Assembly (NCBI RefSeq): GCF_000699445.3
Contig: NC_067195.1
Coordinates: 85,942,569 to 86,006,568, forward strand
Source: Schistosoma haematobium
Lineage: Eukaryota > Platyhelminthes > Trematoda > Strigeidida > Schistosomatidae
DNA: 64,000 bases
Direction: 5' to 3'
Under the pieces are notes generated by a model, which was given only the letters and a program-made list of their open reading frames with translations, was not told the DNA's origin and did not search any database. Positions 3,940 through 51,345 of the stretch are shown here, piece by piece. Position 1 is the first letter of the stretch, and the number at the start of each line of letters is the position of its first letter. A program made the position numbers and the translations under genes.

Positions 3940-4460
3940 GGCCGGGTGATTTAGAGGACCTAATTTAGTTTGCGAGATCTTGCTATTAGAGGTATGAGGG
4001 CGGTTGACCACATCGTGGAAGGGTTCTTCTAGAGGTACCTGAAAAAGAAATAGGGTTAGAGGTGGTCTTAGTAACCTGAGAGCGTGACTGCAGTGCTCAA
4101 GGAACAGCTGCTTGAGGTCGGTCACACATGACCTTTTTATGAGTAATTTTTGTGTTAGCTTGTCGAGACCTTACCGCCATTGGCGGATGTCCGTGGGATA
4201 AGGTGAGGTGTGCATTTTTAGGGCCGACTTTTTCTAACCCCACTCTTTTGTGGGAAGGCAGCATCGCTGTTATGCTAGTTGTCTGAAGGAAACACCTTCC
4301 TGCTGTCACACCTCTGTACAGTCAGCAGTACAACTTCGCCCTCGAACCTTGGGTTTGCTACTTCTAGCCTTACCGCTCTTCAACCGACCTGTATGTCATG
4401 GCAGTACCATGAGCAACGATTGTTCCAGCCAGTATAGCTCGATTGGTTTTTAAGCTATTC
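3940..4460 (-). repeat. Unassigned ~520-bp dispersed repeat, copy 1
   Basis: Its reverse complement aligns along its whole length with 33985-34490; shared landmarks are AGCTATACTGGCTGG, GCACACCTCACCTTA and ACAAAAATTACTCATAAAAAGGTC. A third, partial copy is at 24893-25165. It is GC-richer than its surroundings and has no long frame. The class is not determined; it may be a non-autonomous LINE derivative. Confidence 0.7.
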
Positions 4461-7343: not shown

Positions 7344-10300
7344 GTAAACGAAATATCGATTTTATATTGATTTAATGATTATTGATAAGAGTAATCAAAT
7401 TTCAGAAGGCTTTTTTTGTGTAGATATTATAGCCATTTCAATAGTTGAGGTCATGAGTCGAATGAAGTTAGACCACCATGGAAAATCTGGAACTACTGGA
7501 TGGCTGTTTCGTCCTAGTATGCGACTATTCAGCAGTGTACATCCATGATCCCGCGCTCGCAAGATCTGAACCCAGGACCTATCGGTCTCACGCGCAGATA
7601 CTTAACCTCTAGACCACTAAGGTATGCAACGGTGTTAATGTCTAACTTCAACCAATCCACAAAATTGAGCGACACATCCAACATTGTCATCAGTGAGTTA
7701 CTATCTCACAACAGACCTGGTTGAACTTCACTGATCATTGCTTCTCACTAGAACTCCAGGAAATAACTATTGAAGTCATTCACTAGTAAACACATGATGA
7801 TTATTATCAGAAGGGGGGTTTTGTGGAGATCTTAGTAATTTTGTAGTGGAATTCATGAGTCAATTGATTTTAGATCACCATGGAAAACCTGGAAGCACTG
7901 GACTACCGATTCGTCCTAGTATGGCACTATTCAGCAGTGCATATCCACGACCCCTCACACGGAACTTAGATCTAGGATCTACCGGTCAGTGGTGCAGTTT
8001 CGTGGATTGTTTGAATCTAGATATTAACACCGTTGGATGCCGAATTACTGGTCTAGATATTTAGCGCGAGCCTGATAGGTCCTGGGAGTGGTGATGGGTG
8101 AGTGCTGCTGCGGAGTCCCGTACTAGGACGAAAGGGCCGTCCAGTGCTTCCAGGTTTTCCATGGTGGTTTAGCTTTAATTGACTCATGAATTCGACTATA
8201 AAGTTACAAACACGTCAATTCAGGCATCCAGCTAGTAAACAGCGCTTTGTAGTCTCGAAAACTAGTTCATCATGAATAATAATGTTTCTCTTACAGTATG
8301 TTCTTCAGTGCTTAGGCTATGGTGTGAAATAAAAATTAAAAAAGGAGTTTCTGCGACATGTTTTTCTTTATGATTTTGTTTCCGTTGGTTTTAAGGAAAG
8401 TTTCCTGATGAACACTTTAATTTGTTTATTCGGTTGTTGATTAAATCTGTTGAGATTCAGTTTATTTCGTCAGATCAACTCTATGAATATCTGCTAGGTG
8501 AATTCTATTCTGTTATAGCCTTACAATACTTGAAATGAATGGGTAATCATCGTGGTTTTTATTTGATCCCCTCCTTTGAGTAGCCAGGTTTTCAAGAAAT
8601 TTTTAATAAGCATTGGATTCTAAACGGATTTACTTGTTAAGCAATCACTTTTATATGCATGTACGAAATTATTAAACCAATGAAGACAGTTTATGAATAA
8701 TGTGATGACAGGTGTACTAGTTGCGATAAAGAAAACTAATAGGAACACGTTAAATAACATTAAGTGACTTATTTCTGTTTACTATATGACCGCTATCGAT
8801 CAATATGAAAGACCCGAGCTTCGTATTGTCTTGACAGTACCTTTTCCTAACCACGAAGGGAGGTGTTCACTAACTTTTTGGATCAGTTGTCTGGTAGTGC
8901 GCCCAACATAGCTTTCTCCACAGGACCAGTTCAATTCGTAAATAAACATAGAAGTGGCATAACCAGGTAATTTATCCTTTAGTTAGGAAATCACCATAGA
9001 TCGTGTCGAGTACGATAGACCGAGGTTTGCTGCATTAAACGTCCTCTTCACTGCTCTAGCCAATCTGTCACGTAGTACATCACCAGCTATATCTCTATTG
9101 AATTATAGCTTCATGAAGAGAGGTTTCTTACTAGCAGTTAATGTCACTATTTTCTTGTTTGTTACCCTCAACTGTTACTTGAAGAAACCATGTGGATAAC
9201 CGAATTCAATCAACATATTGTGTATGAACTCTAATTCCTTATCAATTGTATCGACTGAACATATCTTAATAGCTCTATTTATCAGACATTTGACTAAGTT
9301 TCTCTTATAATGAAGAGGTACGAAGCTTGAGAAATGTGTATATTGTCTTGATGAACAACGTTTTCTATATTACTGTATATTAGAGTAAAGGTTGATGAGG
9401 ATCTAATCGAAAACAATATTGTTCGCTTATATCTATGTTGTTCTATATTCATAACTGTATCGTTATATAATGAATTATTCATTCACATCAGCGAATAATG
9501 TAATTCATGTATTACATTGATTTCCTCTTTGATAAATATAAATAGAGACGGACTAATAAATGTATGACAATAACGCTAAATTCATCAAATGAATTTTCTT
9601 ATTCTGATGTGTTTATTCTTCTACCTTTTTTCTGAATGATTTGATTACATACATCAACAGATCAAGTAACCAGGTAATACAAATGAACGTCAATGAAAAG
9701 TTCATAGACAACTGACATGATATTTTAAAACAAAGATGGATAGTGGCTAGCAGTGGAATCCAGGATGTGGCTTTAGTCCTATATGCAACTCGTCAGCTGG
9801 ATGTACCTGCATCACAGAGTTGATGTTCACTTTGGGGCTCGAACCGACCACCGTTCACTTCAAATGCCATAGCGTTATTCATCTAGCTACTGAGTCCTGA
9901 TAGCCACCTGCTTGTGGGAAAATACAAGTAAAATGACACCAAATGAATTTGATATGATATTTGTTGCAGAGTGAAATTTTTTTTATTTGAGGTGGTTTTG
10001 TGTGTGTGGGGGTGCGACTATTAAGTAGGTGTTAGTTATCATAAACTGGTTATATTTAGGGTGCCATTAAAAATTATGACACTCTGGACTACTGTTTCAT
10101 GATGTAATCCATGATGTTCTTAAACTTCAATTGAATAATCTTAAAGTACAAATGTACTGGGATTAAAATATCTGTTATTATTAGTTTTGATCATCATTCT
10201 GTTTGTCGAATTCATTCAAGTTGAAGTTGTATCAATAGATACATGCTCAATATTACTAAAGATTAAACATTTTCTACGAAACCTGAAGACCCTGAGTTCA

Positions 10301-25554: not shown

Positions 25555-28500
25555 GTAAGTAATTAAAATTATTAACCCTACTGTATATTTTTTCTTTTTG
25601 ATTCTTTTAAAGATCAAAAAAGTTCTATAAAAATTCTTTCCAATTGTTGAGCAAATTATCTTTACATCATAAAGAAATTAAATCTATTTTAGAATATTCT
25701 CAAGATTTAAAATCAGTTCTCCTGACTGATGGTATGTGGTTTGATTGAGCTTCTGTTAAGTAACAAATATATATGATCTCTTTACGTATGTTTAGGCAAA
25801 AAATATCATCAAAAACTGTTCAAATTTCGTACATTGGTCGAATTGTTCAGTTCAAAAAAATCACAAATTGTAAATAAACAATTAAATCATGGGAATTGTA
25901 CGTGACATTAAAATATGTTGTGATACTCTTTATAGGCGTAAAAGAGTTACAAAATCTACTGAAAAGTATTGAGGAAATTCTAACAGAATACAAAACAGAG
26001 GAGAGAATGATGTAAGTCACTTGACTTTGCGTGTTTTTTTAGTCTTTTATGAGGCTCAGTATTTTGATTATGGTATGGAATCCACAAATCTAAACACGGT
26101 TCATTAATTTAAAAATTAAAACTTAAACAAAAGTATATTGAGCAAATTAAGAATTGTGTTTTTTGTCCGAAAACACCAAACATCTATTGTCTACCTTGCA
26201 GCGCTGAATAAAATATGCTTTGATAGCTATTTTTGTATACTAATCTTAAGTAGGTTTTACTTTATTGCCAGTTCGTACACTGAACAGATTATTCTACAGG
26301 TTTCACTCATTATTTCTTAGACAGCTGGTATTTAGAAGCTATTTGTTGAACATTTCGTGCATGTTATCTAGTTTTGCAACAAATAATTACTAACAAGTGG
26401 ATGAACTCCATGATAATGCTTTTACACACTACGGTGATTGATTTTAGCATACAGTTTGGATAAAGTATAGGTTCTTGAAATATCTCGAATTAGTTTGACT
26501 GAAATGTTAAAGGAAACATAAACCGACGTTGAAATTTTGCAGTTTTATTCATGCATTGCATAACAATATCATATCGATATTATACATTGATAAACATCTT
26601 GAACTCGTTATAACTTTTATGAACATTTAAAAAATGTTCTTAAACGGTTGCTTTTTGTATTTTTAAAAAAATCTTTTCCTAATTATTAGTGCTGAAGCAT
26701 TACTTCAACAAGAAGTTGAATTATGGCAAGACTGTTTAAATATGGAGCATCGAATAAGTGTTTGGGAGAATGATTCAAAATGGCCAGATAAAATTAATTC
26801 AAAAATTCAAAATAGAGAACATTCAATTAATTCGTTGACACGTTTAAGTATTGGAAGTAAAAACTTACCAGCTGAAGTAAACGAATTTCAAGTAAGTATA
26901 TTTCAGCAAATTGAAAATAAAAAATATACCGTTCCACATCGTCAGCTGTAAAGAGAATAAAACATTTTGACGGCACTCATTCTTCTATCATACATTAAAT
27001 CCAGCCTAGCTGGTAATCCTGTATCATATGTTTTTGTAGTTTAAAAAAAACCAATAATCCGTGATGTATGTGTTGTCACTGTTCTGCATCATAATACAGT
27101 GTACAGTTTGGATAAGGGTGGGAAGTACTTTTGATGAGCATTTCAAAATTATACTTCTACATTGAACTCTATTCCAAGACAGCTACTACTTAAAAAGTTA
27201 ATCAGCGTCTAGACAGACAGTTGGGTAACTAACTACCTATGTTCTTACTTTTCTGGAAGAGAATAGTACATTGTGTTTGGAGGAAAGTGTACAACGTCTC
27301 TACCGATTCAAGAAGATGTGTCACAAAGAGTTGTTCTTTCCCCTTTTCCGCTATCTTTTTTCTTGTATGTTCTGTCATTTTTCACAGAAAACACTTGTTA
27401 AATATGAGAATTATCTCACTTCTTACTTCCTTATATATCCCTTTAAAATGAATCATTTTGGTGTCTTTTTGAACGATGGTTTGCTGTTAAATTTCTCATA
27501 ATGGGTTTTTTTGTGGAGATTTTTAGAAATTTCACAAGTTGAAATCATGAGCCAATTGAAGTTAGACATTAACACCGTTGGATGCCGGCTCAGTGGTCTA
27601 GTGGTTAAGTGCTCGCGCGCGAAGCCAGTAGGTCCCGGGTTCGATCCCCGCGGGGGGCGGGTTCGTGGATGCGCACTGCTGAGGAGTCCCGCACTAGGAC
27701 GAAACGGCCGCCCAGTGCTTCCAGGTTTTCTATGGTGGTCTAGCTTCGATTGGCCCATGATTTCAACTTGTGAAATTTCTCATACTCAACCTTTCAAAAT
27801 TTCAATTACAGCCCGAGACATGAATTACACTTAAACACTTTTTTGGAACCCCATAAAGTTTGTACTACTGAAGATTCTGCAATAAAAACAGTGTCTAAGG
27901 TCATTTATCTCGGTATAGGTGTGTCCTCTGGTCTCTTTTGGTCTTCTCATTGTTCTATTATTATCGAGGGAAGTTTTTCATCCGACTTTTGATACAAAGA
28001 AGCTGCATGCTTTCGGCATTACTCGACATTCAATGTTGTGATTTGTTAATTCTTTCATATTACTTACCATTAGTTATTGTTCTCCATTATGCTCATTCGA
28101 GCTATTGAGAAAAGATCTTGCTGTTTCTTAGAGAGTTTTGAAAGAAGTCTGTAAGTTGTGTGGTGAATCTTTTGAGGTCATTAATAATGTGGCTATAGAT
28201 AGACATCTTAAATCTTACGAACTCCTGACAAGTGTTATCTAATCCTACACTAACCATCTACTTCGTTTATATCGCTAGTTTTGCAAATCTTCTGGTAGAA
28301 CGAGACGTCAATACATTAGAATTCATACACACAAACAAAAATATAAAGGGCTATAATACTTTATCTTGTGAATATATACCATGTGTTGAATAGGTTGTTA
28401 GAAGTGATCTAATCAATAACTTGTATTCTTAAACATGTTCCGTATTAAAAGTTGTATAGATTCCAATCTTATTAAAAGCATTTCATTTAACTTCAGGTAG

Positions 28501-30561
28501 TTTATTAGCTTCATTTGTATATGTATGTATGTAGTTTCATTTTTTTAATTTTTGTTTTGTAAAAGAAGCTTGTTGAAGTACTTTGTACTGATAATTCTAT
28601 ATTGTACTAAACACATAGCATCGAATAAAATCATGACCACCATTGAAAACCTGTAAGCACTGGACGGCCGTTTCGTCCTATTATGAGACTCCTTAGCAGT
28701 GCGCATTCACAATCCCGCCCCTGGGATTCTAACAGAGGGCGTTCAGTCTCGTGCGCGAACGCTTAACCTATAGGCCACTGAAATGACCGGCATTCAACGG
28801 TGTCATTGGCTCACCTGCTGAATAAAGCCATTGATAATAATGATTATAGTAATAATAATGATAATGATGATAATAACTTGTGATAATGCAGTTTGGCATT
28901 TTATAATATGGTTGCATTTTGAGATGACAATATTACCTCTTCTATTAAATAAATGTAAAAAGAATATGAGTCATTGGATTTTTGTACAGCAAAATACTCA
29001 CTCTTAGTACATTACGAAATCGATGGTACATACTGTTAAATACTTCATTCTTGAGACAGTACAATGATACTAATACACATAAGCTTTTAACTGATGCTCG
29101 ATTAAAGTTTACCCATCACAGAAAAATCGTTTCCTGATAATTTTGTTCTTTTGACCATATTAATGATTTAGCTTGTATATAATACGAAAATAGTTTATCC
29201 TCTCATACTTAGCCAGTACTGTCGTACGATTACAGGAGGCATTTAAAACTTCACTCATCCAGGAAAATATATATAAGTTCGTCAAATAAAAAAAGTATAA
29301 TATCACGCAATCGAAACTTTATTCAAATGCTTAACCCATCTGAATAGTTCTTCAGTTTATGCTTATATCAAATGTATAGAGGACTTACTCACTTACTTAC
29401 TTACGTCTGTTACTCTTCATGGAGGAGTATAGGCTGAGCACCAGCACTCTCCATTCAACCCTGTCCTAAGCAATCCTTTCCAATTCTTTCTAGTTGTTAT
29501 TCATCCTTTTCATATGTATAGAGTCATTCACATTACATGACAGTTCCTCTGATTCTTTTTTTGTTTCCATTCTTATGATTAAAAAGTATTCAGTAATCAT
29601 TTAAAACATCAATAGATGTCAATTTATGTAGTAAAACATTTGGATATTACATTTCTTTTTGAATTATAGAACTTTTTAGATAATCATGGTGGACGAACTG
29701 GTGGTTGGACTGAAGATGAACATTTAAAATTTTTAAAATATTACAAAATTAAGAAATTCAAATATAAAAATGACTGTAAAGATCCTGAAAATGAAGAGTC
29801 CAATAATCCTGATCATGATCATCCTCATGAAGAAGAAGAAGAAAACGAATTGTCTACTTTGACAATAGATCATCATGAACAACAAACAATAAAAGATGAA
29901 AATTTAGATAAAATAAATAAAGATAATACTAATGTGAATATGAATGTATTACATGATGAACTTGCAAATATAATCATGACTAAAACACCAAAAGAAATAG
30001 CTGAACATGAAAAATGGTGGAAAGAATTTCAAAAATTTGAAAATGCAAAACGTAAAGCGATTAAAATATGGAGTGAAAATAGGGTATGATTTATAAAAAT
30101 GTCATTATATTTATTGATTTATTATATATATATATATATATCAGAAGAGGTTTTGTAGCGATTGTAGTAATTTCAACAGTTCAGATCATGAGATCTGATA
30201 CTAATTAACATATGCTCACTAGTGACTGGCTTCAAGAAGTATATCCTGAAGTTCTAGTGAGAAGCAGTGACCAGTGGAGTTCGACCAGGTCTGTTATACG
30301 ATAGTAACTCACTGATGACAATGGTGAATGTGTCGCTCAATTTTGTGGACTAGTTGAAGTTAGACATTAACGCCATTGGATGCCAGCTCAGTGGTCTAAT
30401 TGGTTAAGCGCGAGACTGATGGATCCTGGGTTCGAATCTCGCGAGGCGGAGTTGTGGATGCGTACTGCTGAGAAGCCCCACAATAGGACGAAACGGCCGT
30501 CCAGTGCTTCCAGATTTTCCATGGTGGTTTAGCTTCAATTGACTCATGATTTCAACTGTTG

Positions 30562-30624
<63 letters not shown>

Positions 30625-33600
30625 ATACAAAGTTAACTAATCATACTTCTATTCTATCAATCTAACTATTTTGGCAGATACATGTGAATGCTATAGCATG
30701 TTACACACATTCATTTCCAATCACTTTCGTATTTAGTAGTATGTCCATACCTGTGATAACTTTAATTTTAAAATATAATAAGCTCTAAGCAATTGATATG
30801 AACCTAACGAAAGAAAATGGAACCATTTATATATTCTATACTAATCATTGTTTTTACTCTATTCGAATTGGAATTTTTATTAGAATGAATTGGTTCATGA
30901 CTTGAAATTTTTTGAAAGAAAAGATTTATAAACTCTTGCGAAATATCTAAACATTAGGCTACAGCATTCATGTACATATCCTAGAGCAAAAGTTGAAACC
31001 ATAGTAATTGGAGATGAATATTAATCACTAAGTCGAAGTAAACACGATCCGATTACTGCTTATAGTCTTACTGCCTCTACCACTACGGGATTTGAATCGA
31101 CAACAGCATCTCTGTGCTAATGTGGTGTGGAAACTCGAACTGATGTACGTACGTACGAAGTTCTACGTTGTTACTGACTGACTTTAAGTTCAAAATATAA
31201 CCATTCTTAAGACCTTGATAAAGAGATGAACTTTACACACAATACTGTGTACACAAATGATGTTCTAAATTTAAGGATGGTGTAAATATTTGAAGTGTAA
31301 GTTAGTTTTAGGCGTATAACGTTTTGACAGGACTTTGTAAACTACATCTTAATACTCAGAATACACTATATGGTACCGATTAGGTAAATTAATCGTCTAT
31401 GAATGTTATTCGAAAAAAAGGTAATTTTTTTCAGGAAAAAGACTCAGTCCTTCTTTGAGTTTTGATGACATATCTTTCTCAAACTTCAAAGGTTGCTTAA
31501 TGACAAAGATTTTACTATTCGAAGTATGGTTTATTTTTTATTGTCGGGACAGTACACCAAATCGAAACAATTAGTAGTACCATTTTATGTTACTTAGTGA
31601 CAGTAAGTATTTTCAGCAGATATGAAATCAAATCTATTCGGGAATCATTAGCTGGATGTACCTGCATCTGAGTTAATGTTCACTCTGGGACTCGAACCCG
31701 GTACCGTCCGCTTTAAACTACATCGGGTTATCCACTCAGATACTGAGTCCTCATAGAACGGAACGTACTTCCTGGATTCCATTGTTATCCACTATCCATA
31801 TTTGCAATATCGAAGTAATACACGCAGGATACACATATGCCAACAAGTGACTGATCAACTGCAGTCCTAAATATCAATCCGAAAATTCAAACAATACCAA
31901 GTGAATTTAATTAGTAGTAATATTTTATATTACTTATAAATAGTAAGTAGTTTCAACACGTATAAAATTGAATCGTGATATCAGTTCGAAAAATGTTAAA
32001 AAATCCAAGTTCATTCATGTGATTTGCTTATGATTTAAGAATAATCGGGCATAATTAAATCTTGACCTTCTTAGCTAATCACCATCCAAATCTTATATTT
32101 GACTATATTTCAAATTATGTATTCCATTTACTCAACAATTTATTCAATACCTTAATTACATCATAACTCATGAAATTATCTTTTCATTGAAATTTTTAAA
32201 AAACTATGATATCAGGCATTTCTATAGCACTAACAAACGTATATCAAACTCTTTACATTGAGAAAAATAGTCAGCCAGTCAGCTATAATTTACGAACAGG
32301 CACATATATGCATCGGTCCAAGTTGTCATACCTCATTAACACAACATGATGAACACCAAATTCATAGGAGCATTTACTTCAACGGCAGTATTATATGTAA
32401 AAGAGTGTATATAAGCATCTAATACAGGGAGAAAGAATTAGTTCAAAGGAAGAAGGGTACAAAGTAATTTTAACTTCACAGTTTAAAGCAAGACAGCGAG
32501 TGTATACACCAACACCAGTCTGATCAGCCCTGATGAATTGGTGTCTGACGAAATCTCAGCACGGATTCGAAAAGCTCGTTTGGCTTTTGCCAACTTACGT
32601 CACCTATGGCGAAGGCGAGATATCCGTCTATCAATAAAAGGACGAGTATACTGCGCGGCAGTCCGTTCTGTTTTAATTTACGGCAGCAAAACATGGCCAT
32701 TAAGAGTAGAAAACACTCGTAAGCTACTAGTATTTGACCACAGATGCCTTAGAAATATTGCTGGCGTCTGTTGGGATCACCGGGTAAGTAATAGTGAGGT
32801 TAGACGCAAGGTATTAGGGAATGATGGTAAATCAATTGATGAGGTTGTGAATCTTCATCGACTGAGATGGTTGGGTCACGTGTTACGTATGCCCGAACAC
32901 CGATTACCACGACGTGCAATGTTAACCGGTGTTGGAGATGGTTGGAAGAGAATTAGGGGCGGCCAAACCAAAACGTGGCATCAGTGCTTGAAGTCACTAA
33001 CTTCTAGTCTGAGCCATGTTGGTAGATGCAGACTACTTAGTTGGGGTCCACGTGACTATCGTAACCGATGGTTGGAGACTCTTGGTGACATGACTCGGAA
33101 TCGATCACAATGGCGTCGGTGTATACACTCCTTGTCTTCCCTTAAACTAATAGATTAAAATCGCTTCATATCTTCCTTTCTACGTACTAATTCTTTCTTC
33201 CTGTACTGTATCCTTATATGCAATCTTTCCTTTATATATTACCACCATTGAGTTAACTACTTCTATGAATCTGGTGTTCGTATTGTTGTTGTTAATGAGG
33301 TATGGCAACTTGGACCGATGTATATATGTGCCTGGTCCTACGTTGTAGCTGACTGACTGACTGACACCTACACCATTGTGATTGATTCTGAGTCATGTCA
33401 CACAGAGTCCTCTAACCAATGGTTACGACAGTCACGCAGACCCCAACCAAGTAGTCTGCATCTATCAACATGGCTCAGACCAGAAGGTAGTGACTTTGTG
33501 GACTGATGCCATGTTTTGGCTTGACCACCCCTAATTTTCTTCCATCTGTCTCCAACACTAGTCAACATTGCGCGTCGCGATAATCGATGTTCAGGTATAC

Positions 33601-36600
33601 GGAATACGCTGAGAAAAAAAAACAAAAGTTAACTAACTTATCATAGATAACTATTTCATTTATTCAATAACCAACTAACTAACCAACTATCAACAAAATT
33701 CCATTGACAATCAATCAATAATTGAACATAAAACAAAAGGAGTAACAATGTAACGTTTTAATGAACACTGTCATATAATCATTGCTCGCTTTTCTTTTTT
33801 CGAGTCTTATCGATTTATTTTTAAGAAAAGCAAAAGTTGAATAAAGAAGTTTTTCTGTTGCCTAGATGATTGAAACAAAAAGTGTGATAAAGTATCACTT
33901 CACTGATTTTTTGCATGTAAACTATTGAAAAAACAAAATTGAACAAAGAATATTTAAATATGCATTTGAGTAGTATATGATAAAGGAACCGAGCTATACT
34001 GGCTGGAACAATAGTTCCCCAAGGTCCTACCATGTCAGACAGGTCTATTGTAGAGCGGTAAGACTAAAAGCAACAAACCCAAGGTCTGATGGTGAAGTAG
34101 TACTGCTGACTGTACAGAGGTGTGAAGGCAGTAAAGTGTTTCCTCCAGACAACCAGCATAGCATCGATGCTCCTTCCCACAAGGAGGGGTGGAGTTAGAA
34201 AAGGTCGACCCTAAAAATGCACACCTCACCTTACCTCACGGATATCCGTCTCCGGCGGTAAGGTCCCAAAAAGTACGGAGCTAACACAAAAATTACTCAT
34301 AAAAAGGTCGTGTGTGACCGACCTCAAGCAGTTGTCCGTTGGGCACTGCGGTCACGCTCCCAGGTCACTAAGACCACCTCTAATCCAATTTCCTTTTCAG
34401 GTACCTCCAGAAGAACCCTTCCACGGTGTGGGCAACCGAGAAGTGATAACCGCCCTCATACCTTTAACAGCACTCAAGACCACTGTATTCATAACTAATA
34501 TATGATTAAGTCATTACAGTTAGATAAGATATACTTCTGCCTATTATGGAGTGAGTGCCTTACTAGTCTGATACTGTTCAAGTATGTAGAACTTTTCACC
34601 TCTTCCAGAACTTCTCCATCAAAATGTGATTTTATTGCTACTTGGTGTGTGTTGTATTTCTGAATGTAGTAACATAGGAAAAATTAACAGAAGCACAGAA
34701 ATGGTGTTCTTTTTTAAGAAACTGAAAATGCACTTATTGAGAACTGGAATTTTTATCGAGAAGATGTTTTGCGTGATCTGATAAGTTATATTGTTGAAAT
34801 AGAGGTGACATTTACTTCGAAAGAAGTCAAGTAAATGATCAACAAAGAAGGAGTCAAAATAAAAGTATAACTGAAAAATTGAAGGTTCAGATCATGGTAG
34901 AAGTTAAATGGCTTTACTTTACATACGTAGTTCTGACTTATCTAAACATATGGGAAAAGCTTCGGCAATTAGAATCTCACCATCTCTGGTAATTTTCTAC
35001 TTACCTTTTGGATGACTTTAAAAGTTGTATCTGTTTTGATTGGATGACCCTTGTTCACGAGCTGACAGAACTAACTTCAATTAATTAATGATAAGACGCG
35101 AATATATTTGCAAAGCATCAATGACTCCTTTCATACGGATGATTTTCATTGAAAGTCAGAAATCCATTTCAGTACGGATATCTAGTGAAAAGAACGATTA
35201 ATTTTTGTCCGTGTACGCTTTTGGTGATTGTTCAATTTTATTGAAATCATTTACTGATCAATATTAGTCCACCACTGAAAACCTGGAAGTATTGGTCAGC
35301 CGATTCGTCCTAGTATGAAACCTCTCAGCAGTGCACATCCACGATCCCACACTCGAGACTCGAACCCGGGACCTATGAGTGCTTAATCGCTAGATTAATT
35401 AGCTAACATTGATTAACTTTAATGTCTTACTGCGTGGTCATCTTTTATTGTCTTCGGTGGATAACTGACTTACACCTGATACGGTTGAATTCAACTGGTC
35501 GCAGCTTCTCACTAGAACTCCATAAATCTCCTCTCGGGCACGTGATGATTATCAGTACTGTGCTCACTAGTGAATAGTTTCGAGAGGGAATTCTCTCTAT
35601 GTCACGATCATCGTTCTAGTGAAAAGCCTCAATCCGTAGATTTCAGTCGTGTCAGATGTAGTTTTATAAGAATCATTCAATATCAATCAAATTACATACT
35701 TGAATAATTTAAAAACTTTTTTCAGCGTTTAAATATGCAAAATAGAAAACAATGTAAAGAGAAAAATGATGATAATGATAGTGATGATGACGCAATGGGA
35801 AAGAATCATCAATCTCATATCAAACAACATTTATCAATCAGTCAATTAGAAGCTAGAAAAGCTGAATTAGAACAATGGCGTAATCAAAGAGAAGAAATAA
35901 AGAAACAAGAAGAATTATTAAAGAAAAAAATTGAAAATCAATCAAAACAAGCTGAATTAGAATTGAAACGAAAAAGACAGGTATAGTTTTTTCATGACTA
36001 AATGGTTCAGCAGATAACCCAGTCTATTGCTTTTAAGTTATTTTACTAGCTTTAATGGACTTTAATGGATGATAACAGAAGGAACATGGGTATTATTTCT
36101 TTAGTGTATATCAATGGGAAGTGATACTCAAAAACTGAGGTATTTCTAAGTAAAGATGAATAGTAGAATCCAGGACGCGTGTTTCGTCCTATTTGGGGAC
36201 TCGTCAGCTGGATGTACCTGCATCCTAGAGTTGATGTTCACCCTTGGAATCAAACACAGTACCGTTCGCTTCAAACTCCGTCACATCATTCATTTAGCTC
36301 CTGAGTCCTGATAGCCATCTGCTTTTGCAATAGGGTGAAGTTATATTCACATGGTGTTGTTTAATTATATCTTTCCACTATCCATCTTTGCTTATAAAAC
36401 TTGTAACTCCGGGCAATATCGAAGCAGTCCGCACAGGATGCACATATGTCAAAAAGAGACTGATCAATTGCAGTCCATCTGAGTGTTGTAAGAGGTATTT
36501 AGGAACGTGTCATTTCCAAATAAGTCATACTGTATAACAATTAAGTGTAGGCTATGATAACCTGCGAATATTACATCATAATGTGAAATAAAACTGTTTA

Positions 36601-39600
36601 TTGATGAACAGAGGAGTTTTTGATCCATTGACTTTGTAATTTTCCAGTATTGCTGAAAGCACTGGAAATCCGCTATTTCCATGCCAGAGATTTCCTAACC
36701 ACCTACTTTCGTTTTATAAAAGTTATCATTGCTACATATGCTGGTGTTTTCTTTGTTGTTGTTAAAGGAAACGGCTTACTGAAATCACAATTCAATGGAA
36801 TAGGGAGTACATCTGTGATATCTGACTTAAATTTCCATATTTTTCAACTTACTGGTACCTTATTGATTAGGCTGTCATCTTAAAACTTCAAAGAGTAACA
36901 GTTCTACTCAACTTAATTAAATCGAGTTTAGAAAAAAAGATCAACCATACCACTATCCATAGATTGTGAAATATCAAATCAGTATACTTAACAGTCAACA
37001 TTGTAGAGTCAGTTAATTAAAACAAATTTTAATTCATAATTGGAAAACAAAAAGTTTAAGGTTCGAAACTGTCAACCAATAATCGATACAATCAAGAACG
37101 AGTCAAGTTGTATTGATTTGTTATATCCTCAATGCAAACCGATCAATACTTTTTTTATCATGTTCATTTACATACATTCAACGTTGAAGTTCAATTCTAG
37201 TGACAGTGTTGTCGTGTTTTTTCCTATTGTATTCCAAACATTATGCATACCTACTTACTTATGCCTGTTACTCTCAATAGGGTATAGGCCGCCCACCAGT
37301 ATTCTCCAACCCTATCTGTCCTGGGCCTTCCTTTCTAGGTCTATCAAATTTTCTTTCATTTTTCTCATGTCTGTCTCCATTTCTTGGCGTAATGTATTCT
37401 TTGATCTTCCTCCTCCTGAAGCTCCTCTGGAGCTACTGCCGGCCCCAGACCCGGATAAAGAAGGAGGGTTGGGTATGGGGTTACCGAACTCATCCCGTAG
37501 AAAACTAGCTCGCTAAGAAAACACTAACATATATTTTGTGTATTTGTTATTATTCAAGGCGAAAATTCAACATAAAATCTCTTTGTATAAACAAGAGAAA
37601 ATGGCCAAGAAATTAACTACCCTCCATCAATTGAAGATTCAAACAGAAATGGAACAACTAAGCCGTCAACAAAAAATTAATGAAGCCGCTAGTCGAATTG
37701 AACAGAGAGTAAACTGGGTTTTTTTAAATTCTTTTTGTATTTGTGACTTACTAATGATTCTATACTGTTTTGTATTTCCTAATAATGGCACCATAATGAA
37801 AATCTTCATGTCAGCATTCTATTATCTTAAGAATAATATTGTCACAAAAAATATATATATCAGAAGGGGCCTTGTGGGGATTTTAGTAATTTTAATAGTT
37901 GAGATTATGAATCAATTGAAGATAGACCACCATGGAAAACTCCAAAGCACCAGATGGCTTGTTGTGGGATTTCTCAGCAGTGTGAATTCATGATCTCGCC
38001 TCGCCATATAAGAGTCCAATACCTATCAGTCTGGCACGCAAGCGTCTAACCACTAGATCACTGAGCCGGCATCCAACGGTGTTAATGCCTAAATCCAACC
38101 AATCCACGAAACTGAGCAGCACATCCACCGTTGTCATCAGTAAGTAACTATCTCACAACAGACCCGATTGAACTCTACTGGTCACTGCTTCTCACTAGCT
38201 GAGTACTGAAGAAGTTTTTCTGAAACCACGTGCACCATTCAAACTGGCTGCCGTCAACGCTCGCACACTTATGCAGGTTGGACAACAGAAAGGGCTGGCT
38301 ATGTCTTTGGAAAGTCTTAATATCGATGTTTGCTGTCTATCTGAGACCCGTATTCAAGACTCTGGTGAAGTACAACAAATTCGCTCACCAACTGTCGCTT
38401 CGAAAGCTTGTTTTACGTGCGTTTGTCCGGGGACCCTGTGGCATCTTCGTCTGGTCTACTGGCGTTGGTGTCGCACTAAGCGCTAGAGCTGAGGCAGCAC
38501 TAGTCGATTGGATCCCCATTAACAGTCGGTTATGTGCTGTTAGATTAGAGTTCCATCAAAGTGAGAAGAAATCGGCGTGAGAAACGATGTCTTTTCGTCA
38601 TCTCCGCCTATGCCCCGACAGATTGCAGCCCGGATGCAATCAAGGATGAGTTTTACCACCAGTTATCTGTTCTTCTCCAGAAAGTGCGCTCGACAGATAT
38701 TGTAGTACTAGCCGGAGACTTTGTAGTGTTAGTCATTAATTTTAGCCCATAATATATCTTATTCTAGTTTCCGGACATTCCATTCTATTCATTCTACTTG
38801 AGTCATGTTTTGACCTTGTTAATTATTCGCTTGTCAGTTTTGACTGTTTTTATATGAGCGTATATGTGTGTGCCCATCTTATCGCATTAATCACATGTCT
38901 GTAGTTTATTTTGTCTGACTATAAATATTGAGTAACGCTTAATTAAAATGGAGTTGGCTTCCCAGCCATCTTCCATACGTGTCATTTTTGCTTTGCTATG
39001 CTTCATTCGCTTCGTGTACGAAATATATGTATTCTTAAGTCAATTCTCGTAATTCGACTTATTTAATATCGTTATTGGATAACGCGATTTACGTCGACGA
39101 TGAAACACGAGAATAAGGTGATAGCAAACATTCGTACACTCTAAATTGGAGTCAGATCCACGGGCCATTACAACTTGAATGCTCAGGTAGGGAGTCTAGG
39201 CACAGAAGAGAGTCGTTTAGGTGGCACAGTCATCGCCGATGTGCCACCTGGCGTCCTCCCTCTGCATCTCAAGCCTGGACTCAGATTGATCACATCGCGA
39301 TCATCTACCGCTGGTGTGGTTGTGTACAAGATTGCCGTTCCTTTTGGAGTACGTATCTGGACTCTGACCATGCCTTGGTCTGCGCCAATCTTACCTTACT
39401 TTTCAGTGGACAACGAAGTGACCGTCACCAACGGATTGATGTTGGCAAGCTGGTTGCAACTTCTGTTGCAAGTAAGTATCGAACCGAGCTAGCTTCTAGG
39501 CTAGCTACCATTCCACCGAAAAGCATAGATGAGCATTGGTTGCAATAGCATGACGCCATGAAAATGGCGGGTACAATCAGTTGTGGGTTTGCGAAACGTC

Positions 39601-42600
39601 CCGCTTATAAGCACTGGGTTTCTACAGGTTCCTTACAACTCGTTGAAGCCCGTCGGTCTACTCCGGGTGACCGTCAGTTTGACCAAAAACGAAGGATGTT
39701 ACGTAATGGAATTGGGCAAAGCTTGCTTAAGAACCAAGAAGCCTGGCGGTCGGAGCGTGTTAATGAGCTGGAAGCAGCAGCTGCATCTGGTAATTACCGG
39801 AAGCTCTTCCAACTCATCCGAGCCACTGGCAGCAAGAAGTCTGGTGTGAGCGAAACAATCTGCGAGGATGACGGAATGCCAATCACTAAGATCAATCGAC
39901 GTCTTGGACGATGGGCAGAATTTTTCGAAGGGCAGTTCAGCTGGCCTGCTGCTCCGGCAACATCGGTCAGACTGTCCTGCCCTCCATGGCCGGTGGCGAC
40001 TGATCCACCAAATGAGGTGGAAGTCCGCAAGGAACTCCAACTCTTGAAGCGTTACAAATCACCTGGCCCAGATGACTTACCTCCGGCTCTTTTTAAAGAT
40101 GGTGGTGACTTTTTGACTAAGGAATTGACGACGTTGTTTACAAAGGTTTGGGAACTAGAGAGTGTACCAACGGCATGGAATGAGTCAATAGTTGTCCCTA
40201 TCTTTAAAAAGGGTTCACGTCCTTCCTGTAACAACTATCGGGGGATAAGTCTACTTCCGATTGCGTCCAAGCTATTGGCTTCCATCATACTTCGTAGGTT
40301 GTTCAAAACCCGAGAAAGATTGACTGGCGAGGAGCAGGCTGGGTTTCGTTCTCACGATTCCTCTTCAACTTCGCCATCGACGACATTCTGGAGACAGCTC
40401 TGATGAATGTAAGTAATGGTGGTGTGGATCTGTTGCCTGGAGAAAGACTTCTCGACCTTGAGTATGCGGACGATATTGTCTTACTGTGCGATAATGCCCA
40501 AGGCATGCAATCCGCACTTAATCAGTCGGCAATCAATGTCCGTATGTACGGTATGTGCTTTGCACCTTCGAAGTGCAAAGTACTTCTACAAGACTGGCAG
40601 GATTCTGATGCTGTACTCACTTTGGGTGGTGAGCAAATAGAAGTAGTCGAGAAGTTCGTGTATCTGGGTAGCTGCATAAGTGCTGGTGGGGGTGTGAGTG
40701 ATGAGATCAATGCACGTATAGTGAAAGCCCGAGCGGCTTATGCCAATCTGGACCACCTTTGGCGCCTTCGTGATGTTAGTCTGGCTGTAAAACGTCGGAT
40801 CTACAACGCGTCGGTGAGAGCAGTTTTGCTCTATGCTTGCGAAACCTGGCCTCTCCGAGTTGAGGACGTAAGACGACTCTCTGTGTTCGATCATCTTTGT
40901 CTCCGAAGGATTGCTGGCATCCAGTGACAACACCATGTTAGTAATGCAGAGGTTCGGCATCGTGTGTTCGGGCACAGAGACGATGATGCAATTGGCGTCA
41001 CCATCTTGAAACACCGACATCGGTGGCTTGGACATGTTCTACGAATGTCATCCCAGAGAATTCCACGTCGTGCATTATTTGCCGACTGTGGGACTGATTA
41101 GAAAAATCGGGGAGGTGGTCAGTATATGACATGGTGTCGTGGCATGAAAGAAAGCTGTAAGGGACTGGCTTCTGTTGGTCCTTCACGACTCCCTGGCTGG
41201 GGTCCGAGAGATGGTGCTACACAGTGGTTAGAGACGTCATCAGATATGGCTTAGAATAGAAGCCAGTGGCGATCCTGCTGTAACCTTTTACTTTCCTCAT
41301 AAAAGGTGGTTGTATCTCCCTTAACTGAAGGATTTCTTCTGATTGTACCTTCCCGTTCCCCCATTTTTACGATTATTATAACACCACCTTACATCAATCT
41401 CTTCGTTATCATTCTCTCTTTTTTTCCTTCCCCTTAAATTCTCATTGTTTTGTGTGGCGCATATATATTTGGTGCCCCTTTTGTACCAATATTTATGTGT
41501 TCAAATAAATAAATAATAATAAGCTTCAATTGACTCATGATCTCAACTATTAAAATTACATATGAAATTATTAGTTATTTTGTTAACTACATAAATCATG
41601 ATGAAAAACAAATTTATTACCAACACACGTCAATATATCGAGTCCCGAGTACGGTGTCGTGGATACGCACTGCTGAGAGATCTTTTACTAGAACAGAAGT
41701 GGTTATCCAATGCTTCCAGGTATTCAATGATTGTCTAACATTAATCAGCTTATGATTTCCACAAAAATTCAATATGTCTAGCTAAAAATAATCAATCAAT
41801 TATGCTTCCTAATAAAGCGAATTGATAATGATATATATATATCATATTGGAATTGAAATGTCTAGCTGTCATATCAGATTATACATATATATTCCCTAGT
41901 TTGAAATGAACCGTATTTATTCCTATTGAGATACATATTTAGCATAGTTCCAATATAAACACAAAACATTTGGCTCGGATACGAGTACCAGGAAAATGTG
42001 ATTAACTATAGGATGGTATCACATATTACTATTGATGATTGTTAATTACAACAATAATCATAATCATAAATAAACTAAACAAAAATGTTTTTGTAAATCT
42101 TGTCAATTATTTCCTTACGCATGTTACTCCTCGTGAAGGAGTATAGACCGCTCACCAGCATTGTAATAGTTTTAGTAGTTCTCCAAGTTTCAGCTCCGTA
42201 CAGTAGAACTGTGTTGACGTTCGTATTGAAGATTATAACTTTGATATTGGTTGAAATTTGTCAACTACTGTTTGTTTTCTTTTCTTTCCTAGACAATTAA
42301 TCAACTAAACCAATTATCTGCTCGCAAAAAAGCTAAAGAACAGTCAGAAATTCCTCGACAAGAATTATTAGAACGAATTCCAATACAGGTTAGTGACTAG
42401 TTGGTTACTCAATCTGATAAAACAGATCACAATCATACTTACTTACGCCTGTTACTCTTTGTAGAGGAGTATAGGCCGCTCACCAGCATTCCTCATCCAA
42501 CCCTGTTCTGGGTAATCCTTCCCAGCTCTTTCCAGTTGTTATTCATCCTCTTCATATCCGCTTCCGATTGCCGACGTTATGTGTTCTTTGGCCTTCCTCT

Positions 42601-48402: not shown

Positions 48403-48590
48403 GGACTCAGTAGCTAAGTGAATAATGCGATGGCGTTTGAAGCGAACGGTACTGTGTTTGATTGACAGAGTGAACATCAACTCTAGGATGCAGGTACATC
48501 CAGTTGACGAGTCCCCAATAGGACGAAACGCGCATCCTGGATTTCACTGCTAACCGTAATACATCTTTACCTAATAAACATGTTTTTTTT
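48403..48590 (+). mobile_element. Sm-alpha-like unit A5 (second of the pair)
   Basis: CTCAGTAGCTAAGTGAATAA, degenerate box B, GTGAACATCAACTC, then a hammerhead at 48495-48545. Confidence 0.8.
48493..48546 (+). ncRNA. Hammerhead ribozyme, one core mutation
   Basis: ATCCAG, then TTGACGA where CTGACGA is required (C3 to T), stem II GTCC/GGAC, GAA, GCATC at the cleavage site and CTGGAT. The lost core C predicts no activity. Confidence 0.7.
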
Positions 48591-48769
48591 AAACGAGAAT
48601 AGTTTAAATACTGAATGTAAAGCAACAGACATTTTTCCTGATATTCAAGATAATCTATTGTTGAACTATGATAAACTTTGAATAATTATCACTTTAACTA
48701 ACCTTATCACACGTTTGAATTTCATCAATAAAAAGTATAATTATTAACCACTGTGCAATAATTTAATAG

Positions 48770-48975
48770 TTGAATTCATGATTCAATTGAAGCTAGACCA
48801 TCATGGACAACATGGAAGCATTGGACGGTTGTTTTGTCCTAGTATGAGATTCCTCAGAAGTGTGCATCCATGATCCTTCACTGTGAGATTCGAACCCAGG
48901 ACCTATAGGTTTCGCGCGCGAACGTTTTACCTCTAGCTTTAATTGACTCATGAATTCAACTGTTACATTACTATA
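48770..48975 (-). mobile_element. SINE family B, copy 10
   Basis: Antisense: CATGGACAACATGGAAGC tail, hammerhead with an intact CTGAGGA but GAA changed to AAA, box B GGTTCGAATCTC, truncated box A region. Confidence 0.7.
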
Positions 48976-49329
48976 ATATCCAAGAAAACCCTCGTTCGTT
49001 ATACAATAGTTGTTATCAACATATCTAGAGAAGGATTGGTCAGATTTCTGACTAATCTGTTAGTGCAAAACTGAATTGGAACCACTAGGATGGTTGATAC
49101 ACTTTCAGCTTAATTTTTAAAAAAAGATAAGTAATTACATCGACATCGAATGTATCTTACATTTTAAAGAAATTCATCAGAGACTAACTGTTTGTAAGTG
49201 TTCATTTGTGAAGGTAAATGATAACTAATCACTGTCCCTATCTAAATGGATACACGTCAAGTCGCATAAATCCAATATACTAATAGTAATTATATCGATA
49301 TTATATCTTGTATTATTACTACTCATGTT

Positions 49330-51345
49330 AATTTCTTCCCAGTTAATCCTGAAAAGTATGACACTAATTTATCTTCCATCGTATTATCTGCTAATGGAAA
49401 GAAACCACTCTCTCTATCGGTTTTAATTTCTCGGTCCCTATAACGCAAATGTCAGAATTGGAAATAAATACCCAATTTGAAAATCTATATGATCAACTGA
49501 ATACTCTAACCCCTACGTCTTTAAATAATCAAAGCTGGTGTAAAACAAAACCGGTGGATATAGCACACCAATTTCATAATGTTGAACCAAAGCAGAGAAA
49601 CATATTAACTTCTCAGCATTTTAAATCATTAAAAGAACTACGAACAAACCCTGATATTGTCTTGTTTAAAACCTGATAAAGGATCATGCGTAGTTATCAT
49701 GAATAAATGTGAATATAAAAGTAAGACGTGATCCATCCTCAGTGATGAAAGTAAATTTATGCCTGATGTTGAATTTGGAGGTATCAGCAAACTAGAAGGA
49801 AGAGTAAATTCAGACCTAGAAAAATTGTTACGCATGAATATTATTAATAAATAGGAATTTAATTTTCTAAAACCTATGGGTTCCGAGTTCCCTCATTTAT
49901 ATGGACTACCTAAAATTCACAAACCCAATGTTCCTTTACGTCCAATTCTATCAATGTGCAGATCACCTACATATAACCTGGCTAAATGGTTAGCAAAGTT
50001 GTTGGACCCTATTCGAAGACATCTATGTAAGTATTTTCTAAAGGATTCTTTTGAACTGGTCGATCATTTAAGTGATATTAATATCAAGGAAAAGACAATA
50101 TGTTCATTTGATGTAAATTCCTTGTTTATAAATGTACCTTTGAAAAAAACCATTGATATATTATGTGATTACGTATCTGCAAACAATTTTCAATTATGTG
50201 TACCTGTAAAACTTCTTAAAGATTTACTATTACTATGTACTGACAAAGTTCAGTTCACTTTTGAAGGTGAATACATTCGTCAGATTGATGGAGTTGCTAT
50301 CGGTAGTCCGCTAGGATCATTATTAGCAGATATGTTCATAGCACATGTTGGAAATCTGGCTGATGGCCTAATCGAAAACATGTCACTTTACAAGAGATAT
50401 GTGGACGATATCTTAGTTGTTTGTGAAAGAAAAGAAGATATGTACTGTTTATTGAATAAATTTAACTCTCCAAAACCATATCAGTCTCTCGTGTGAAGAG
50501 AAGAAGAACGATCAGCTCCCCTTCCTAGATATACTTCTGAGTAGACGAGAAGATGGTTAAGTCAAGCGATCTATTTTAAGAAAACCAACATGGACAGGTC
50601 AATACGTTAGTTATTATAGTTATTGCCCTGTGCAATACAAACGTGATTTGATAAGGTGCCTTTTCAACAGACTTGATCGTACTTGTACAAATGACGCCAT
50701 TGATGATGATGTTAAGTTGCTAAATAAAACATTAATAAAAAATGGCTATCCTCTGAAATTCATAAATAGATGGAAAGTCCATGGTACAGTGAGACCTACT
50801 GTAGCCTTGTCAGAAAAAAGCCTGTCTACATCACATTGCCGTTCAGAGGTGATTAAACTAGCCTTTTATTCAAACAAAGACTTAAATCAGTCATCAATAA
50901 AACCTATTGCGCAGCAAAGCTCACTATCAAAGAAAGAACAAGGTGCATGCTTCATCCAAAACTTAAAAGACATGAAAACGATTGTGTCACATCCCACCGT
51001 GTTTACCAATTTAAATGTGTGTGTGGTCACACATACATAGGGAGGAGTAATCGTGATCTCAACATTTAGGGTGAGTGAACATGTACCAAAATGACTTCAG
51101 AAACAAATACAATCAAGTGACCCAATAAGAGTAGAGGGTAAACATCCATCATCCTCTATTGCTAAACATATAATTGAAACAGGCCATAAGATTGATCTAA
51201 ACCCGGCCTTTGTGGTGTTGTATAAAAGTGTAAAAGGGCGTATATTAAGGTTTATTAAAGTCTTAGCCATACGAAAATTCAAACCCCCTTTGTGTGTTCA
51301 AAAACAGTTTGTTCCTACCTTAAACCTACCCTGATAATATTGACT
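49330..51345 (+). mobile_element. Penelope-like element (Cercyon/Perere-10 type), broken
   Basis: RT in 49449-50496: HLYGLPKIHKPNVPLRPIL, ICSFDVNSLFINVPL, GVAIGSPLGSLLADMFI and YKRYVDDILVV (YVDD). Connection region 50630-50990. Then, in another frame, VYQFKCVCGHTYIGR and a basic C-terminus to about 51332, i.e. a GIY-YIG endonuclease as in Penelope-like elements. Frameshifts at about 49675, 50495 and 50995 and an in-frame stop near 49853 make it inactive. The family assignment to Cercyon or Perere-10 is from memory and needs a search. Confidence 0.85.

Follow-up and report, generated by a model that had tools for sequence, protein, structure and literature searches.

Family B hammerheads in the window

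The window, a stretch of 64,000 nucleotides of Schistosoma haematobium DNA, carries a type I hammerhead motif at 27673-27718 on the plus strand. An earlier note had predicted a hammerhead here from the sequence, and this was confirmed by the Rfam model RF00163, which matched with 37.3 bits (gathering threshold 34). The same search found five other hammerheads in the window. The motif belongs to a repeat family designated B. Its features in the window are listed below, together with hammerheads of the type found in Sm-alpha, the classic schistosome hammerhead SINE. Unit positions refer to the family B unit described in the next section, and short and long to its two alternative 3' ends.

27489-27500, no strand: left target-site duplication AAATTTCTCATA, 12 bp, from flank comparison
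27501-27567, minus strand: inverted 5'-truncated piece of the 3' end, long end outermost (blast, unit 326-403 on the minus strand)
27556-27772, plus strand: direct 5'-truncated copy, unit 144 to about 360, with the short 3' end
27594-27604, plus strand: A-box-like motif TGGTCTAGTGG, putative pol III element
27638-27648, plus strand: B-box-like motif GGTTCGATCCC, putative pol III element, without tRNA match
27673-27718, plus strand: type I hammerhead motif (RF00163, 37.3 bits) of a copy with a core change adjoining the cleavage site
27773-27784, no strand: right target-site duplication AAATTTCTCATA, 12 bp, from flank comparison
7395-8197, minus strand: older copy made up of two head-to-tail pieces plus one inverted piece; its two sides have the long and the short end, respectively
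28635-28814, minus strand: older single copy with a hammerhead at 28657-28702
30139-30565, plus strand: older inverted doublet, long end left and short end right, with a hammerhead at 30462-30507
35265-35375, minus strand: family B fragment
37858-38198, minus strand: older single copy with a long end
41522-41762, plus strand: family B fragments
48768-48991, minus strand: older inverted doublet, short end left and long end right (unit 387; typed by the wider limits only)
9758-9802, minus strand: Sm-alpha-type hammerhead
36168-36213, minus strand: Sm-alpha-type hammerhead, 60.5 bits, core CTGACGA
48498-48542, plus strand: Sm-alpha-type hammerhead, 55.3 bits, core TTGACGA

The element around the hammerhead at 27673-27718 turned out to be longer than had been described. 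The insertion spans 27501-27772 and begins on the left with an inverted stretch of the element's 3' end. The B-box-like motif lies where it had been placed, at a distance of 24 nt from the hammerhead (given as about 25 bp). About ten copies had been mentioned; nhmmer gave 12 window matches at E < 1e-6. The claim that each copy has at least one core defect is true of the window, where all nine ribozyme-covering copies fail, but it does not extend to the genome. By the criteria applied here, the ribozyme was intact in 43 of 52 copies with at least 90% identity to the unit, in 3/18 copies with 80-89% and in 1/19 copies with less than 80% identity (89 copies in total, after the exclusion of three of the 92 extracted copies whose ribozyme contained more than 6 gaps). 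Because the young set consists of the best matches to the copy at 27673-27718, the intact share among young copies is not a genome average. The defects were also said to differ among the window copies. This holds for most of them, but two pairs have an identical CTGANGA variant.

The ancestral sequence was proposed to be an intact type I hammerhead. In agreement with this, the same intact 46-nt ribozyme is present in the majority sequence of each age class, whether young, middle or old. Copies of family B matched RF00163 with 40-50 bits over model positions 1-45 of 45, and one young copy reached 50.3 bits over the whole model. The 4-bp stem III assigned to it had to be abandoned. A hairpin with a stem of that length is impossible, since ACGGCCGU, a perfect palindrome, leaves nothing for a loop. 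Within one molecule the stem would have 2 bp and a loop of 4 nt; pairing of two molecules would give it 8 bp. The computed energy of a double hammerhead joined through the palindromic stem III of two copies was -36.1 kcal/mol, compared with -13.8 kcal/mol for the best monomer fold. For a monomer with its flanks the ribozyme fold had -13.7 and the minimum-energy fold -22.9 kcal/mol, a result that counts against the explanation preferred below.

The view of family B as a family other than Sm-alpha is supported. The blastn similarity between them is limited to 27-29 nt at the ribozyme, but with nhmmer there was one weak longer match (E 0.0026) between B and the Sm-alpha copy at 36170-36274, which included the box region.

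Structure of the family B unit

The S. haematobium genome searched comprised 400,267,458 bases on 163 contigs, with the window at C1:85942569-86006568. From the flanks of genomic copies the unit has a length of about 400 nt, and its G+C content is 50.5%. About 180 nt are followed by A- and B-box-like motifs at 182-192 and 226-236 (consensus TGGTCTAATGG and GGTTCGAATCC, respectively) and, at 261-306, by the hammerhead; the 3' region beyond it can end at either of two sites. The A-box-like motif fits the A-box consensus TRGYNNANNGG, and the other motif was likewise assigned by comparison with the B-box consensus. The two motifs may serve as an internal pol III promoter. In several copies a few AAT triplets connect the long end with the 5' start of a following unit. 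The longest stop-to-stop stretch in a dimer of the unit was 114 aa, and family B is non-coding, without an RT or GIY-YIG frame. The unit is strongly self-paired (z = -4.4).

With ARAGORN neither the window nor the consensus yielded a tRNA, and an Rfam search with one young copy matched no tRNA family at E <= 1. At 182-236 of a unit of about 400 nt the boxes are not located at the 5' head, unlike those of a tRNA-derived SINE. Of the original designation as a tRNA-headed SINE the box motifs remain, but there is no tRNA model match, the boxes lie in the middle of the unit, and the insertion anatomy is Penelope-like and not that of a LINE-mobilised SINE.

The majority sequences of the age classes differed in none of the 46 ribozyme positions and none of the 28 tail positions (0/74 together) but in 43 of 324 positions elsewhere (P = 8e-5; ribozyme alone 0.004), in a contrast for which the regions were picked post hoc from the alignment, the pieces had been collected through their similarity to the young unit, and positions uncovered in older classes were scored as unchanged, the last of which works against the contrast. 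The 324 positions are 309 tallied ones plus 15 (171-185) without a difference, and 16 of 138 pieces, being shorter than 60 nt, were left out of the majority sequences. The pattern suggests that the source copies retained the ribozyme and the tail while the remaining unit turned over.

Two 3' ends and the anatomy of insertions

In 300,661 bases (the window and loci L009-L048) 138 matches to the unit were found. The 3' ends of 65 young pieces fell into two groups 34 nt apart, a short one near 364 (34/65) and a long one near 398 (31/65, some of which are internal junctions). Older classes had the identical two groups, and the 5' ends were scattered in every age class.

With one exception, the head-to-head doublets with both ends typed obey a simple rule: a short end on one side is combined with a long end on the opposite side. 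Among 42 young insertions (best piece with at least 88% identity, clusters no more than 35 bases away from the end of a locus being left out), a set chosen by similarity to the copy at 27673-27718, there were 25 doublets with both ends typed, 24 of them short and long and one short and short. The 24 mixed doublets were divided equally between long-left/short-right (12) and short-left/long-right (12). The older doublets were not selected by similarity to that copy. In 47 older clusters all six doublets with both ends typed were short and long under wider limits, and all three under stricter limits. The limits for typing were 350-376 and 390-412 in young copies and 345-376 and 380-412 in older ones. 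Altogether 30 of 31 typed doublets combined a short with a long end (exact P = 7e-8 against random pairing), or 27 of 28 under the stricter limits (P = 5e-7). The lone short and short doublet counts against the preferred explanation, as do the reliance on the wider limits for three of the six older doublets and the doublets at L020, L032 and L040 (one young, two older), which have one end outside both classes. The insertion at L020 (788-1181) has a 14-bp duplication and a right end at unit 235; this end could represent a third start site or a truncation.

Exact duplications of at least 10 bp flanked 23 of the 42 young insertions, compared with 20 of 2000 mismatched flanks. Two of the 23 were unconvincing, consisting of element sequence in L015 and of an AT repeat in L041. 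The 25 duplications judged convincing had an AT content of 85%, against 66% in the sequence examined. An assembly artefact was rejected as the source of the doublets, many of which are flanked by target duplications. Both inverted head-to-head pieces and head-to-tail junctions occur inside single duplication-flanked insertions. The inverted part ranges from about 43 nt to the whole unit between insertions, and the lengths of the duplications vary.

Penelope-like elements of the same genome

The reverse transcription of Penelope-like elements (PLEs) has been described as starting at two adjacent internal sites with a tail of 30-40 bp between them, a tail reported to be unique to PLEs, and insertion as the cutting and extension of both target strands at AT-rich targets (PMC11167929). 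For Adineta vaga, head-to-head inverted pseudo-LTRs (pLTRs) with a 31-bp tail that is optional on one of them were reported, and a foreign gene was carried along in trans with nothing more than pLTRs (PMC3846280).

The GIY-YIG model PF01541 gave one match in the whole S. haematobium genome, and therefore a PLE RT fragment was taken as the query. PLEs are abundant in this genome: the PLE RT stretch had at least 112 matches (110 of 7661 first-look candidates were scored), with open frames of up to 823 aa. RT or GIY-YIG-like fragments of PLEs were present in several of the examined loci and twice in the window, where they are broken (8602-9420, minus strand, and 50579-51223, plus strand). A tandem PLE array with a period of about 2843 bp and open frames of 817 aa lies at C2:34777486-34788739 and has an inverted piece at one end.

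One PLE family with long open frames, represented by L054, has the same end rule as family B. The L054 region had 42 matches, 22 of which ended at query positions 221-229 (about 600-608 of L054) and one at 234. Four insertions of this family had side ends at 577/603, 576/602, 576/601 and 566/607, that is one short and one long end in all four, and each was flanked by a duplication of 12-14 bp, compared with 4-9 bp at mismatched sides. The repeat upstream of the PLE frame at L051 also has two ends, about 40 nt apart. Here four of six typed inverted pairs were mixed and two were short and short, and a seventh pair, at the query's own locus, was untyped; we count the result of four in six against the preferred explanation.

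Six PLE 5' regions were examined. In L051, L054 and L055 a CTGANGA...GAAA motif is located directly before an ATG. RF00163 gave no match above the cut-off at these three loci, and at L034 it matched only the B copy. Among the six regions only that of L053 matched family B over more than 17 nt: at 52-221, upstream of the PLE frame, there is an inverted pair of old B-like sequences (78.9% and 79.5%). No PLE with a 3' region clearly homologous to that of B was found, which counts against the preferred explanation; the best link, a weak one, was a 15/16 match, TGAAATTTCTRAAAAT (E = 0.075). This match was not taken as proof because the two elements carry it at different end sites, the PLE at its long end and B at its short end.

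Other contacts between the two kinds of element were seen as well. B is located within a PLE 3' region, in the same place, at L036 (3950-5594) and L039 (3999-5676), and L036 has a palindromic structure PLE-B-B-PLE, as if the chimera had been copied. L034 contains a PLE fragment that includes a GIY-YIG-like domain, and a hammerhead-like stretch, CTGAAGA ... GGACGAAACGTTGG, occurs in the 3' region of this fragment at about 4389-4440.

Family B as a retrozyme-like element with the insertion anatomy of PLEs

Family B is a real and well-preserved hammerhead family. The description as a plain tRNA-headed SINE does not fit it; the element is non-autonomous and retrozyme-like and has the insertion anatomy of PLEs. 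With Penelope/Poseidon elements, as described in PMC11167929 and PMC3846280, it shares a hammerhead upstream of two adjacent RT start sites, a tail of about 30-40 nt between them, the extension of both strands, head-to-head pieces, head-to-tail junctions, target duplications and AT-rich targets. It differs from them in the absence of an RT/GIY-YIG frame and the presence of A- and B-box motifs. Moreover, its hammerhead fits the whole Rfam type I model, whereas that of PLEs is minimal and has neither stem III nor the loop contacts. Metazoan non-LTR retrozymes resemble B in being non-coding (about 400 nt in B, about 170-400 nt in the class), in their canonical type I hammerhead, head-to-tail copies and self-paired unit, and in their coexistence with PLEs (PMC7229834, PMC7761336). 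In contrast to B, with its G+C content of 50.5% and its pol III-type boxes, the published G+C content is below 45% according to a legend and below 50% according to the text of these reports. A partnership of PLEs and retrozymes was proposed there from their co-occurrence and common features. A literature search of limited depth found no example of PLE insertion signatures on a retrozyme.

Could B nevertheless be an ordinary tRNA-derived SINE, mobilised by a LINE such as RTE through its AAT-rich 3' tail, with inversions due to twin priming? It has A- and B-box motifs, target-site duplications and a tail ending in TGATAAT repeats, and of sixteen hammerhead-like small-RNA clusters reported from S. 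haematobium adults seven overlap SINE/tRNA repeats and two LINE/RTE-BovB annotation (PMC5993326). Such an element should however have a single 3' end, whereas B has two that are used about equally and are found together in a doublet. There is no match to a tRNA model, and a PLE of the same genome has the identical anatomy. Twin priming from one RNA is ruled out because both pieces of a doublet carry a 3' end, and the twin-priming version was rejected for this reason. We regard mobilisation by a LINE as unlikely. A foldback or MITE-type DNA transposon, with the inverted ends as true terminal inverted repeats, might be suggested by the copy at 27501-27772, as its inverted ends (about 27531-27573 and 27735-27772) are enclosed by a duplication. 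True terminal repeats are difficult to reconcile with an inverted part of variable length (about 43 nt to the whole unit), outer ends that differ by 34 nt and duplications of varying length; the first two of these led us to reject this candidate, which we consider highly improbable.

In a further alternative B would have no separate existence as a non-autonomous element: it might be the pLTR of a PLE family with its own ORF, of which solo and truncated copies are seen. Against this, the long end leads, in the copies examined, not into an ORF but into the 5' part of the next unit, by pattern in L008/L015, L023 and L025 and by blast in L009, L032, L036, L038, L039, L041 and L043. In addition, none of the six PLE 5' regions except L053 resembles B beyond 17 nt, and L051, L054 and L055 have the CTGANGA...GAAA motif just before an ATG. 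The pLTR-like tandem junctions, the tail and the inverted copies would be in keeping with this alternative, and so would a B-like inverted piece directly before a PLE fragment (L043, 3836-3929) and the old inverted pair upstream of the frame at L053. On the whole there is little probability that B is a pLTR, about as little as for the LINE-mobilised SINE.

We consider it probable that B is a non-coding, retrozyme-like element of about 400 nt, with a presumed internal pol III-type promoter, and that it owes its copying and its insertion in trans to the RT/endonuclease of PLEs. This explanation builds on the two 3' ends, the doublets with one short and one long end each, the AT-rich duplications, the constant ribozyme and tail, and the PLE family with the identical end rule. 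A possible course of events is as follows. Dimeric or tandem copies would be transcribed by pol III from the A and B boxes. The hammerhead would cut the multimeric transcripts, best as a dimer via the palindromic stem III, giving unit-length and perhaps circular RNA. The protein of a putative partner PLE, probably a dimer, would bind to the tail. Both strands would be cut at an AT-rich site, and from each cut end reverse transcription would be primed at one of the two neighbouring sites on an RNA. Two incomplete cDNAs joined head to head would then appear as an inverted doublet.

With somewhat less confidence, we favour a more general view according to which the hammerhead 'SINEs' of schistosomes are pol III-driven retrozymes inserted by PLEs through an obligatory two-site, two-strand mechanism, in which every insertion would use each of the two start sites exactly once, one for either target strand. 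If this is true, it would imply a symmetric (dimeric) integration complex and would amount to the first proof, from genome data, of the proposed partnership between PLEs and retrozymes. The insertion scars in the genome sequence offer structural evidence for a mobilisation of retrozymes by PLEs, previously proposed from co-occurrence. Many hammerheads exist in animal genomes, and insertion scars can decide which agent copies them. The rule of one short and one long end can be examined wherever an animal genome has retrozymes, and it sets limits to the little-known integration mechanism of PLEs.

Other hammerhead elements of schistosomes

In S. mansoni, W25.2 (415-428 bp), W26.2 (399-402 bp) and W27.2 (403 bp) have been described, with hammerheads weakly similar to that of Sm-alpha. 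Three candidates taken from W25.2 and W36.2 copies showed cleavage activity in vitro, and all species examined, S. haematobium included, were reported to have orthologs of W25.2, W27.2 and W36.2 (PMC8490949). W25.2, W26.2 and W27.2 resemble B in their very short stem III and in the length of the unit, and the W elements have tens of thousands of partial autosomal copies (PMC8490949). As far as length and the presence of a hammerhead were compared, B is possibly the ortholog of one of these three elements.

Sm-alpha/W36.2 shares with B a type I hammerhead, a short stem III and a SINE-like size, but the published unit has 332-335 bp compared with about 400 in B (PMC8490949, PMC2770079). Two clear end classes were looked for among the Sm-alpha copies and were not resolved. 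Head-to-head pairs of Sm-alpha were observed at L031, L032, L034, L037, L039 and L041 and in the window at 31633-31910 and 36161-36476, which suggests that Sm-alpha shares its insertion mechanism with family B.
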